Shown here: piece by piece, positions 54,140-58,084 of the stretch
How positions within the stretch are numbered: the stretch's first letter is position 1
Layout of the letters: each line of letters starts with the position of its first letter
Source of the DNA: Sandaracinaceae bacterium
Lineage (GTDB): Bacteria; Myxococcota_A; Polyangia; Polyangiales; Sandaracinaceae
Assembly: GCA_019637095.1 (NCBI GenBank)
Contig: JAHBWG010000029.1
Location: forward strand, 1-64,000
DNA length: 64,000 bases
Reading direction: 5' to 3'
Made by a program: the position numbers and the translations under genes
The notes under the pieces: model-generated
Told to the model about the DNA's origin: nothing
What the model saw: only the letters and a program-made list of their open reading frames with translations
Databases searched by the model: none

Positions 54140-54795
54140 TGGCGAAGCCGGCGAAGAAGCAGGGCACCGGGGCGGGCGAGTCGTTCGCGCGCCTCCCGGC
54201 AGCCGGGAAGGCGGGGATCGGGATCGGGCTGATCGCGGTGCTGGTCGCGGGGTACTACTTCGCGCTGCACCTCAGCCTCGACGAGGAGCTCGAGTCCGCG
54301 GTGGCGCAGCACGGACAGCTCCGGCAGCGCATGACGCGCGCGCAAGCGCAGAACGCGGAGTATCTGCGGCTGCGGATCGAGCTCGAGCAGCGCCAGGGGC
54401 TCGACCAGGCGAACCTGCGCGCGCTGCCGGCCGAGGCGGAGACCGCCTCGTTCCTGCAGGACCTCAACCGCCTCGCCGAGCTGAGCGGGCTCGACATCCG
54501 CTTGGTGGAGCCCCGGCCGGAGGAGAGCGCGGAGCACTACCTGCGGCTCCCGGTGCGTCTGCAGCTGCGCGGCAAGTACCACCAGATCGCGCGGTTCTTC
54601 TACAACGTCAGCCGGCTCGATCGCCTGATCAGCATGGAGAACATCCAGCTCGGGCAGCCTCAGCGCAGCGCGCGCGAGGCCCAGGTGGACGAGGTGATCA
54701 TCAGCGTCGAGGTGCTGGCGACGACCTTCCGGCGTACGCCTTCGGCCGAGGCGCAGGCGGCTGCGCCGGCAGCCCAACCGAGGGCAGGCACATGA
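54139..54795 (+). CDS. pilO: Type IV pilus assembly protein PilO
   Basis: A 218-residue inner membrane partner of PilN. A short cytosolic Lys-rich N-terminus is followed by a membrane helix (AGIGIGLIAVLVAGYYFALH), a coiled coil (ELESAVAQHGQLRQRMTRAQ) and a periplasmic ferredoxin-like domain ending in VDEVIISVEVLATTFRR. The LQLRGKYHQIARFFYNVSRL segment is typical of PilO. It starts on the stop of pilN (TGATG) and overlaps pilP as ATGA. Confidence 0.93.
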   Translation: MAKPAKKQGTGAGESFARLPAAGKAGIGIGLIAVLVAGYYFALHLSLDEELESAVAQHGQLRQRMTRAQAQNAEYLRLRIELEQRQGLDQANLRALPAEAETASFLQDLNRLAELSGLDIRLVEPRPEESAEHYLRLPVRLQLRGKYHQIARFFYNVSRLDRLISMENIQLGQPQRSAREAQVDEVIISVEVLATTFRRTPSAEAQAAAPAAQPRAGT

Positions 54796-55448
54796 AGCGA
54801 GCGTTGCGCGCATCGGTCCTCGCGGGCGTGATGGGGCTCGCCGCGGCGGGCTGCGAGGAGGAGCCGATCCAGGTCGGGCGCGGGCTCGGCCCCGCGGGTC
54901 CGACCGGACCCGGGCCCGCCGCGCCCGGGGCGCCCGGGGAAGGGGTCGACGCCGGCGTGGACGCCGGCCCGGAGATCGTCACCTACCGCGACGAGGACTT
55001 CGTCGACTCCGACTCCAATCGGGACCCGTTCCGCAGCTACGAGTCGATGTTCATCATCCAGGTCCCCGAGATCGACCAGGGCGGTCGCGACGTCACGATG
55101 CCGGACACGGGCATCGACGAGATGCGCCTGATCGGCGTGGTGACCGGCTCGGCGAACCCGCGCGCGATGATCGTGGATCGCGACGGCGTCGGCCACGTCG
55201 TGCGGCGCGGCGACTACGTCGGTCGCTCCGAGGTCGTGCAAGTCGGCGGGACCGAACAGCTCCCCGTGACGCTGAACTGGCGCGTCGACCGGATCCGCGA
55301 CGCCGAGATCGTGCTCACGCGCGAGGACCCCACGGCGCCCAACCGCCCCCCGCTCACCCGCGTCCTGATGCTCCGCAACGAGGACGAGGAGCGGGCGGGT
55401 GGCGCGCAGGGGATCCGGCAGGCGAGCACCGAGGAGACCCGCGACTGA
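54792..55448 (+). CDS. pilP: Type IV pilus lipoprotein PilP
   Basis: A 218-residue inner membrane lipoprotein linking PilNO to the secretin. Signal peptide with lipobox LAAAGC (Cys21). A Pro/Gly-rich linker (GPAGPTGPGPAAPGAPGEGV) precedes the PilP beta domain: SNRDPFRSYESMFIIQVPEI, MRLIGVVTGSANPRAMIVDR and VRRGDYVGRSEVVQVGG match the family. ATG 54792 overlaps pilO by 4 bases. Its stop is followed not by pilQ directly, as usual, but by a 434-base spacer. Confidence 0.92.
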   Translation: MKRALRASVLAGVMGLAAAGCEEEPIQVGRGLGPAGPTGPGPAAPGAPGEGVDAGVDAGPEIVTYRDEDFVDSDSNRDPFRSYESMFIIQVPEIDQGGRDVTMPDTGIDEMRLIGVVTGSANPRAMIVDRDGVGHVVRRGDYVGRSEVVQVGGTEQLPVTLNWRVDRIRDAEIVLTREDPTAPNRPPLTRVLMLRNEDEERAGGAQGIRQASTEETRD

Positions 55449-55531
55449 GCTCGCTGGAGGGGTTGTTCCAACGTCCCAACCCCTCCCCCCCTCGCGGGGG
55501 CGATGGGGCCCCGGCCAACGGCCATCGCGCA

Positions 55532-55560
55532 GCGATGGCCTGGCCTCGATGGCGCGCTCG
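55532..55560 (+). repeat. 29-base direct repeat, copy A
   Basis: Begins GCGATGGCCTGGCCTCGATG and differs from 55653-55681 at one base. Its start is the right arm of the 55520-55540 hairpin. Its last 21 bases also resemble 47869-47889. Confidence 0.8.
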
Positions 55561-55652
55561 CGCGCGGTGCGTCTTCGATGGGGACCCCCACGCGTGGGTC
55601 CCCCATCCCCTTCTCGAGCGCGGCGGTGCCATCGACCGACGCCCGTCGCTGC

Positions 55653-55681
55653 GCGATGGCCTGGCCTCGATGGTGCGCTCG
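55653..55681 (+). repeat. 29-base direct repeat, copy B
   Basis: Same sequence as copy A except T for C near the 3' end (GATGGTGCGCTCG). It also starts in the right arm of an inverted repeat (GCCATCG at 55628-55634), so the hairpin-plus-repeat module appears twice. Confidence 0.8.
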
Positions 55682-55882
55682 ACGGCGTAGGCGCTCGATG
55701 CGTCGCTGGCGCCGCGCGCGTCCCGCGCGTGCGTCCCGCGCGTGCGTTCGAGCGCCGGTGCGCGCCGCGCGGAGCTGCGTCGGGAGCGGGGTCGCCGCGA
55801 GGCGGCCTGTCTGTCGCTTTCTTGCGTCGGTGCCGTGGGGCGTTCGACCATTCGCGTTCAGGGAACCGTCGAAAGAGGACTC

Positions 55883-58084
55883 ATGCGAAGCACCCGTTTG
55901 TTCGTCTCGGTCGTCGCCTGCCTCGTCGCTCTCGCGTCGTCCGGGGTCGCACAGACCTCCGACGTCAGCGTCCGCGCCGTCGAGCTGTCGGGCTCCGAGC
56001 ACCGCGCGCGCGTCGTGATCACCGGCGACTTCGAGGTGCCGCGGTACGCGGTGCGGACGCGCGAAGAGGGGCGCGTCGTCGTGGTCGAGGTCGATGGCGC
56101 GCGGATCGAGGGCGCGCTCGCCGTCGACGGCCAGGCGGGCCTCGTCACCACGAGCAGCGCGAGCGCGACGGCGCGCGGCGTGCGCATCGAGCTCGGGCTC
56201 GCGGTGCCGGCGATCCATCGCGCGCGCGCCACGGCGGGACGGATCGAGCTCGTGCTCGAGCGCCCCGGCGCCGGGGGGCAGCCGGCGCCGGTCGAGGCCT
56301 CGGGTCCCGCCGAGGTCCGCGCGGTCCACGTCGAGCGCCGTGACGGGCGCGACCGCGTCGTCGTGCAGCTCTCGCGCGCCGCGACGTTCCGGACGGTGCG
56401 CGCAGGGAGCGGGCCGGCCCGCCTCGTGATCGACGGCGCGCGCCCGTCCGCGGGCGTGCCCCGCACGCTCACCGTGGATCCCGCCGAGGACATGGTCGTG
56501 CGCGGCGTGCGCGTCGAAGAGGATCGCGGGCGCACCGTGATCGAGGTCCAGCGCGACGACGGCGCGTTCGGTACGGCGATCCGCGAGGGCGACCGCATCG
56601 TGTGGCTCTTCGCGCCCGCGCCGCGCCGCGTGGAGCGCCCGCGCTCGCGCACGATCGCTCGAGAGGCGTGGGCGCAGGCCGACGCGGACGAAGAGGACGA
56701 GGACGCGATCGACGGGGACGAGGTCGCGGCGTTCCTGTCCGACGTGCCGATGCAGCTCGGCCGCGCGCGCGGCGCGCAGCGCTACCGCGGGCGGCGCATC
56801 GACCTCGACTTCCACAACGCCGACATCCACAACATCCTGCGGCTCATCGCGGAGGTCGGCGGCGTCAACATCGTCACGAGCGACGACGTCTCGGGCAGCG
56901 TCACGATCCGCATGCGCAACGTCCCTTGGGACCAGGCGCTCGACGTGATCCTCCAGGCCAAGGGCCTGGGCATGGTGCGCCGCGGCAACCTGATCCGCGT
57001 CGCGCCGCTCGCCTCGCTCGAGAAGGAGCGCGAGCTCGCCATCGCGCGCCAGAAGCAGCAGATCGAGCTCGCGCCGCTCGAGACGCGCCTGATCCCGGTG
57101 AGCTACGCGACGGCGAGCAACCTCTCCCCGCGCGTGCAAGAGCTCTTGACGTCGCGCGGGAACGTGTCTGTCGACGAGCGCACGAACGTGCTCATCGTGC
57201 GCGACACCATCGAGAGCCTCGACGACATCGAGGAGCTCATCCGCACGCTCGACACCCAGACCCCGCAGGTGCTCGTCGAGGCGCGGATCGTCGAGGCGAC
57301 CAGCCAGTACGTGCGAGACGTCGGCATCCAGTGGGGCGGCAACGTCCTGGCGTCGACGGCGACGGGGAACCCGACCGGCCTCATCTTCCCGTCGAGCGTC
57401 GGCGTCACCGGCGGCAACTTCGATCAGAACACGCCGAGCGCGGGCCTCTCGCCGTTCGCGCCGCGCGTCGCGACGCCGAACTTCGCCGTGAACCTCCCGG
57501 CGACGACGGGCACCGGGCAGGGCGGCGCGCTCGGCATCACCCTCGGCTCGCTCGGCGGCACCGTCAACCTCGCGGTGCGTCTCAGCGCGGCGGAGGCGAC
57601 CGGCGTCGTGCGCATCATCAGCTCGCCGCGGATCCTCACCCTCGACAACCACGAGGCGCACATCGCGCAAGGGACGTTGATCCCGTACTCGCAGATCAGC
57701 GCGCAGGGCGTCCAGACCGCGTTCCAGGAGGCGAAGCTCGAGCTGCGGGTCACTCCGCACGTGACCGCCGACGGCTCGATCTCGATGCACGTCAAGGTCA
57801 CGCGCGACGAGCCGGACTTCACGCGGACCTCGGCCCGCGGTGACCCGACGATCCTCAAGCGCGAGGCCGAGACGCACCTCTTGATCGAGGACGGGCACAC
57901 CGCGGTGATCGGCGGCATCTACACGCGCAACACCGGCCGCAACGTCGATCAGATCCCGTTCTTCGGTGACATCCCGATCCTCGGCGTCCTGTTCCAGCGC
58001 CGCCGCATCCGGGACGAGCGGAACGAGCTCTTGATCTTCCTCACCCCGCGCATCGTGAACCGCGCCGAGTCGCTCCGGCGGTGA
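55883..58084 (+). CDS. pilQ: Type IV pilus secretin PilQ
   Basis: A 733-residue outer membrane secretin. Signal peptide MRSTRLFVSVVACLVALASS; two AMIN-like domains (about 25-135 and 145-250, the second starting VRAVHVERRDGRDRVVVQLS) that bind peptidoglycan; a short acidic link; the secretin/TonB short N-terminal domain (RIDLDFHNADIHNILRLIAE); an N1 domain (LIPVSYATASNLSPRVQELL); and the secretin pore (RIISSPRILTLDNHEAHIAQ to FFGDIPILGVLFQ and ELLIFLTPRIV). ATG 55883 follows AAAGAGGA. The longer upstream frame has no signal peptide and was rejected. Confidence 0.94.
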   Translation: MRSTRLFVSVVACLVALASSGVAQTSDVSVRAVELSGSEHRARVVITGDFEVPRYAVRTREEGRVVVVEVDGARIEGALAVDGQAGLVTTSSASATARGVRIELGLAVPAIHRARATAGRIELVLERPGAGGQPAPVEASGPAEVRAVHVERRDGRDRVVVQLSRAATFRTVRAGSGPARLVIDGARPSAGVPRTLTVDPAEDMVVRGVRVEEDRGRTVIEVQRDDGAFGTAIREGDRIVWLFAPAPRRVERPRSRTIAREAWAQADADEEDEDAIDGDEVAAFLSDVPMQLGRARGAQRYRGRRIDLDFHNADIHNILRLIAEVGGVNIVTSDDVSGSVTIRMRNVPWDQALDVILQAKGLGMVRRGNLIRVAPLASLEKERELAIARQKQQIELAPLETRLIPVSYATASNLSPRVQELLTSRGNVSVDERTNVLIVRDTIESLDDIEELIRTLDTQTPQVLVEARIVEATSQYVRDVGIQWGGNVLASTATGNPTGLIFPSSVGVTGGNFDQNTPSAGLSPFAPRVATPNFAVNLPATTGTGQGGALGITLGSLGGTVNLAVRLSAAEATGVVRIISSPRILTLDNHEAHIAQGTLIPYSQISAQGVQTAFQEAKLELRVTPHVTADGSISMHVKVTRDEPDFTRTSARGDPTILKREAETHLLIEDGHTAVIGGIYTRNTGRNVDQIPFFGDIPILGVLFQRRRIRDERNELLIFLTPRIVNRAESLRR

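Follow-up and report, generated by a model that had tools for sequence, protein, structure and literature searches.

The gap between the type IV pilus genes pilP and pilQ in this Sandaracinaceae bacterium holds a single degraded, rearranged copy of a multi-hairpin repeat that is dispersed through the genome. The window, meaning the whole stretch of DNA that was analysed, is 64,000 nucleotides long, and models R1 and R2 find no other copy in it. The gap is probably best read as a REP-like repeat at the 3' end of a gene, with a local role that is at most that of an mRNA-end hairpin, and with pilQ expressed mainly from its own promoter.

The gap is well defined. Between the TGA of pilP (55446-55448) and the ATG of pilQ (55883) there are exactly 434 bases (55449-55882). 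The pilP open reading frame scores 20.6 bits with the Pfam PilP model, under the cut-off of 25.6, and its DNA resembles the pilP DNA of relatives. The features are:

54792-55448, + strand: pilP, open reading frame; the TGA stop (55446-55448) marks the element's left edge
55449-55455, + strand: spacer GCTCGCT, 7 nt, from the pilP stop to the stem of hairpin 1
55456-55486, + strand: hairpin 1, inverted repeat GGAGGGGTTG / CAACCCCTCC with a lengthened loop; R2 match
55487-55511, + strand: remnant of hairpin 4, aligned to model R1
55512-55549, + strand: hairpin 5, first copy; R1 match, arms at 55520 and 55532
55532-55560, + strand: 29-base module, copy 1
55577-55607, + strand: extra hairpin, inverted repeat GATGGGGACCCC / GGGTCCCCCATC, absent from the consensus unit
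55629-55670, + strand: hairpin 5, second copy; R1 match, 30.1 bits, E 7e-7
55653-55681, + strand: 29-base module, copy 2, one mismatch against copy 1
55718-55743, + strand: 13-mer GCGTCCCGCGCGT, twice in tandem, within the G+C-rich tail
55818-55851, + strand: pilQ promoter-like block, TTTCTTGCGT - N18 - GACCAT; the same block lies 5' of pilQ in relatives
55822-55827 and 55846-55851, + strand: the hexamers of this block
55872-55879, + strand: likely pilQ ribosome-binding site, AAAGAGGA
55883-58084, + strand: pilQ, secretin, 733 aa; Pfam Secretin 153.6 bits

Hairpins 2 and 3 are missing here; what this copy retains is hairpin 1, the hairpin 4 remnant and a doubled hairpin 5. The hairpin 1 region (55446-55519) matches model R2 with 31.7 bits (E 2.1e-5), and 55446-55591 matches model R1 with 57.9 bits (E 2.2e-14).

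The hairpins and the duplicated 29-base module that the original prediction described are real. The two modules sit within a pair of 49 bases that is 84% identical. The gap further has a perfect 10-bp stem (55456-55465/55477-55486), a 12-nt stem at 83% (55577-55588/55596-55607) and an imperfect 47-nt inverted pair at 74% (55520-55566/55615-55661). As anticipated, the gap is also strongly structured when folded: TGA plus gap as RNA reaches -263 kcal/mol, with a z of -4.67 and none of 100 shuffles equally good. The opposite strand folds strongly as well (z -3.84, again 0 of 100). In the minimum-energy fold hairpin 1 is local, and the module copies pair mutually in one long arm; they do not form two local hairpins. 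The absence of T-runs behind the hairpins, also noted originally, holds for the main stems. A terminator scan of the gap finds none after them, and its sole terminator-like match is a weak 5-bp stem outside them (55801-55815), whose T tract is part of the pilQ promoter-like block.

A dispersed repeat at gene ends

Comparison of fetched copies gives a full unit of around 205 nt, with five hairpins in a fixed order. After the stop codon comes a T-rich spacer, then hairpin 1 (GGAGGGG...CCCCTCC), hairpin 2 (CCCAT..ATGGG or equivalents), the linker CCCCCCACCC, hairpin 3, hairpin 4 (CCCCATCGC..GCGATGGGG), and finally hairpin 5 with its bulged outer stem and a looser tail. Copies in the own genome agree across these roughly 205 nt, loops and linkers too; the exact 3' end differs between copies. 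The tail motif AGTCTTCGAG (loci L089 1607 and L092 1566) resembles the 5' start GTCTTCGGAG (L043 1440), and these are possibly direct repeats at the two ends of the element. At L088 1548 (minus strand) there is a minimal copy, the hairpin-5 core alone, where gene stops that are apparently convergent lie about 27 nt apart.

The gap has at least 54 DNA matches in the 9.25-Mb genome, query included. The core motif CGATGGCCTGGCCTCGATGG, with up to two mismatches, occurs 88 times, and its reversed control 0 times. R1 is a covariance model built from 28 full copies, with 4 of 32 copies left out as atypical. Among the best 150 of 25,129 candidates scored it gives at least 138 matches, including partial and tandem units, two of them in the gap. 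Because several of the searches scored the best candidates only, all these copy numbers are lower bounds.

The repeat has no match in Rfam 15 at E up to 1 in 55000-56300 of the window, and none at 11 loci, most of which have copies. At further element loci Rfam finds tRNA and SRP RNA only. The 27-base exact core is absent from the GTDB r220 genomes, among which the genome's own records are perhaps not included, and phage and plasmid records gave no match to the element. The literature searched yielded no report of it. One phage-like viral contig (L330 6900-7100) has a similar double hairpin with a CCCCCCTCCCC linker, shortly past a stop codon; besides this one, viral contigs gave no element-like stretch.

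Elements in the own genome mostly start at the last base of a stop codon, run in the sense direction, and favour convergent gaps. Open frames and codon-position G+C served to call gene ends, in place of a gene finder. By this measure 95 of 106 core hits have a coding-like stop in sense to them, at most 420 nt upstream. The remaining 11 are one loose hit elsewhere in the window, two hits deep in arrays, and hits for which no frame passed the filter.

There are 77 distinct element-bearing gene ends, with TGA as the stop in 75 and TAG in 2, and conservation begins at the first base past the stop codon. In 42 of them the GAGG of hairpin 1 comes exactly 7 nt after the stop, and in 22 at another distance of up to 25 nt; in 13 it was not found. 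For the window copy the distance to GAGG is 8 nt, and that to the first stem G is 7 nt. The base at +1 is G at a frequency of 0.83, and T at +2, +3 and +4 has frequencies of 0.58, 0.68 and 0.47. At 142 other gene ends, which had to pass a stricter frame filter and lie in loci picked for carrying elements, these numbers are 0.49 for G and 0.08, 0.10 and 0.13 for T.

Gaps with an element are convergent in 30 cases, co-directional in 22 and divergent in 3, versus 14, 61 and 28 for gaps without one, where all gaps come from loci picked for carrying elements. For convergent versus co-directional gaps this is an enrichment with a Fisher p of 9e-6. A cruder count of neighbours gives 33 convergent and 15 co-directional. 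The pilP-pilQ copy belongs to the co-directional minority.

The predicted hairpin structure is supported by compensatory changes. In the 28 own copies, 97.8% of stem cells pair. Cells with changes on both sides number 61, versus 19.3 +- 4.9 in shuffles (0 of 500), and pairs number 10 versus 7.0 +- 1.2 (10 of 500), while further pair types, at 17, are below the shuffles' 18.3. The copies are related, so the comparison with shuffles counts as evidence and not as a probability. Between genera, where 18 sequences were compared over hairpins 1 and 2, there are 40 double-change cells versus 17.5 +- 3.4 (0 of 500). Sliding by -1 still gives 32, two of the five covariation measures are not above shuffles, and hairpin 2 aligns poorly, with 72.4% of its cells paired.

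The idea of G-U pairs as a mark of selection on the sense RNA was considered and dropped. The cells that are not Watson-Crick are G-T in 11 cases and A-C in 10, and such a near-equal ratio gives no sign of selection on sense RNA over DNA.

Relatives, turnover and mobility

The same hairpin layout, with other stem letters, is found within the family (genomes G001, G002, G005, G006, G007 and G008), in other families of the order (G010, G017, G025, G035, G043, G076, G082 and others), and in another order of the class (G213, with 35 matches from 35 candidates scored). A strict hairpin-1 pattern hits 18 of the 144 genomes of the order. The own genome has 44 hits, G005 has 76 and G035 has 141; a control has 9 over the whole set of 144. 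Where a genome has only one or two hits, these may be due to chance. With stricter filters and the best candidates scored, a two-hairpin model is found in at least 7 of 140 genomes of the phylum. The two-hairpin pattern occurs in 96 stretches in GTDB r220, and among the 80 stretches listed, 79 carry myxobacterial titles and one is called "uncultured proteobacterium".

Outside the own genome, copies come after each of the three stop codons, such as TGA followed by GTTCTTTG and GGAGGG in G213, or TAA followed by gttttcg in G035. They are also found behind tRNA genes, at distances to hairpin 1 of 10, 9, 24, 8, 12 and 10 nt (L167, L171, L187, L273, L310 and L334 respectively), and behind an SRP RNA gene (L299 1566-1660, 5 nt past the Rfam match). 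Some follow terminator-like T-runs. A called open reading frame stops close upstream of 22 of 79 copies in G035, and of 17 of 57 in G005. The stop rule is weaker outside the own genome, and many of these copies are in tandem arrays.

When the 81 own upstream genes are compared with 17 from G005 and 9 from G008, there is one clear ortholog pair that has the element in both genera (own L042 and G008 L210, 78% identity; other matches have 31-44% identity). G005 and G008, which are of one genus, have 6 element-bearing ortholog pairs in common. G008 has counterparts of 8 of 12 G005 flanks, and 7 of these could be read into the gap. All seven sites are occupied in both genomes, one by the first 9 nt only, and at some common sites the array length differs. 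Positions are therefore shared within the genus, and largely different between genera.

As a second option, the original prediction offered an inserted mobile-type repeat. This stands as far as dispersal goes. Dispersal is borne out by the at least 54 DNA matches, the at least 138 R1 matches and the gaps without an element in the relatives G001, G002, G006 and G008. Movement is not, with 7 of 7 sites in common, and recent transposition between close genomes was not seen at these readable G005/G008 sites.

The own genome has three IS200-type genes and five weak matches to a RAYT model; the match at L057 scores 37 bits against a cut-off of 80. Y1/RAYT-like genes from 34 sources (33 places) in several genomes were searched for elements in their surroundings with model R2, and 11 of them also with R1, which found none. 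In one of them an element lies about 0.65 kb from an IS200-type gene, directly behind another open frame of 206 codons. A link to Y1/IS200/RAYT genes was set aside, as none in the own genome has elements on its flanks in the manner of RAYTs with their REPs. All 13 element genomes have RAYT-model matches, as do 8 of 15 others; these are mostly below the cut-off and partly to IS200-type genes, and the association is weak.

It is possible, if on balance not the case, that we are looking at a functional RNA element of 3' ends (a terminator, an RNase-cleavage site or an mRNA stability element) that is selected and rarely duplicated, and not at a selfish repeat. Such an element would go well with the preferred distance between the stop and hairpin 1, the U-rich single strand followed by a strong hairpin, stems that are compensated inside and between genera, the convergent enrichment, the positions common to close genomes and the copies behind tRNA and SRP RNA genes. 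It goes less well with a pilP-pilQ copy that has no U-run after its main stems, and with G-U pairs that do not exceed A-C. Few genes carry one, too: at least 138 matches versus an estimated 8,000 or so genes, with a single clear ortholog pair in both genera when 81 own genes are set against 17 (G005) and 9 (G008).

A bolder reading is that this is a class of elements, unreported in the sources searched and found across the Polyangia, which colonises the exact 3' ends of genes (at stop codons, tRNA and SRP RNA genes and terminators) by recognising gene or transcript ends and not a DNA sequence, and which keeps its chain of hairpins by compensatory change while the letters change per genus. We consider this unlikely.

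Targeting of the element to gene or transcript 3' ends, for example by a single-strand transposase or by reverse-transcriptase template switching onto RNA 3' ends, seems distinctly doubtful. No recent insertion was found at the readable G005/G008 sites, and we know of no enzyme or intermediate. What such targeting would explain is the position of the 5' end, which in several families is close behind stops of all three kinds, behind tRNA genes (five of six cases at 8-12 nt, the sixth at 24), behind the SRP RNA gene (5 nt), and behind terminator-like T-runs.

The pilQ locus

The original prediction started from the idea that pilP and pilQ normally abut. In relatives they do not: six of seven gaps are 146-393 bp long (147, 146, 222, 158, 393 and 325 bp), and the seventh, which contains another open frame, measures 2,062 bp. 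In G014 (L114 4482-6422) an opposite-strand open frame of 647 codons lies between pilP and pilQ.

The gaps read in G001, G002, G006 and G008 hold no element, and neither do the pilQ loci of G001, G002, G003, G005, G006, G007 and G009, as far as these extend. An element lies in the gap at three of 30 pilQ loci (the own one and 29 relatives, some stopping short of the gap). The own copy is in sense; those of G035 (L415 1078-1248) and G017 (L419 1194-1410), from two other families of the order, are antisense. G017 (L160/L419) was first met through a model hit, and is therefore biased as a sample of pilP-pilQ gaps. In the proposed comparison with relatives, two gaps have an element, in antisense; in the loci of the other 27 relatives R2 has no match at E up to 1 and R1 none better than E 0.4. 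Given how few gaps carry elements at all, the recurrence in pilP-pilQ gaps is curious.

Slightly upstream of the pilQ start there is a block consisting of a T tract, TTGCNN, a spacing of N17 or N18, and GAxx(A/T)T. The own version reads TTGCGT-N18-GACCAT (55822-55851). The strict pattern is present in 17 of the 24 pilQ loci read across the order (own included; L404-L429), whether or not there is an element. Variants were recognised by eye in G006 (N18), G043, G030, G034 and G011, and within the stretch read G029 and G046 have none. A consensus promoter scan does not list the block. We infer that it is a pilQ promoter and that it is active.

Separate pilQ expression is explained more simply by this promoter-like block, which is there irrespective of the element, than by tuned hairpins. 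This bears on the first explanation in the original prediction, in which the gap is an attenuation or processing site that lets the level of the secretin differ from that of PilMNOP. The same hairpins occur at the 76 other gene ends examined, and with this and the block such tuning is not supported. A site specific to pilQ has become very unlikely, even if the gap is strongly structured and 2 of 29 relatives' pilQ loci, in two other families and with some loci ending short of the gap, have an element there. Both of these elements are antisense, and R1 and R2 leave the other 27 loci empty at the thresholds given.

Unrelated G+C-rich terminators that are alike by chance can hardly be the answer: the two-hairpin pattern does also occur once in the phage-like contig, and several of the 18 hairpin-1 genomes have only 1-2 hits, near the control of 9 in 144, but in the own genome the agreement over about 205 nt with linkers and loops, and the 88 core sites versus 0, contradict it.

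Proposed role and known systems

Under the REP-like reading, the hairpin 7 nt past the pilP stop would act at the end of the pilMNOP transcript, where it would block 3' exonucleases or the terminating ribosome and weaken read-through, as PMC12306157 describes for E. coli REPs. Transcription of pilQ would start mainly at its own promoter-like block. The family as a whole may have spread by some mobilising activity, and may have been kept mainly where no gene was harmed.

For type IV pili, it points to pilQ forming its own transcription unit in this group. If the anchoring to gene ends holds, one genome offers dozens to more than 100 natural replicas of a single post-stop hairpin. These would allow a genome-wide test of what such a hairpin does: stall ribosomes, protect transcripts, end transcripts, or nothing. 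The repeat is also a family defined by structure that has no counterpart in Rfam 15.

REPs, in the portions of PMC3733652 and PMC12306157 that characterise them, are high-copy, extragenic, palindromic, arranged in mosaic arrays, genome-specific and often near stop codons. The element is like REPs and BIMEs in all of this: it is high-copy, extragenic and palindromic, has mosaic arrays, is genome-specific, and lies close to stop codons. However, a REP or BIME is built on one palindrome of 20-40 nt, while the element is a five-hairpin unit of around 205 nt which, in the own genome, is in sense to the upstream gene. The REP/BIME tag, GTAG or CGTC, is practically absent at the ends of its hairpins. 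Within 6 nt of the ends of the five helices, 28 full copies have one GTAG and one GACG, at different helices, and no other tag. RAYT-associated REPs flank a RAYT gene, and over 34 sources the element does not. Lacking both the tag and the flanking, it is not filed as a RAYT-associated REP.

E. coli REPs within 15 nt of a stop lower translation, according to Liang, Rudd and Deutscher (2015) as cited in a passage of PMC12306157. The pilP-pilQ hairpin, at 7 nt past the stop, fits the reported distance; it is of another sequence family, and a similar effect is predicted by analogy.

With intrinsic terminators the element shares a strong G+C-rich hairpin at gene ends and an enrichment in convergent gaps. 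Intrinsic terminators have a U-run after the hairpin, whereas the pilP-pilQ copy has none after its main stems, and in the element a T-rich stretch precedes the first stem instead.

MITEs and ERIC-like intergenic repeats are non-coding, dispersed and structured, and measure about 100-250 bp. The element is likewise non-coding, dispersed and structured, and differs from them in being anchored to the 3' ends of genes.
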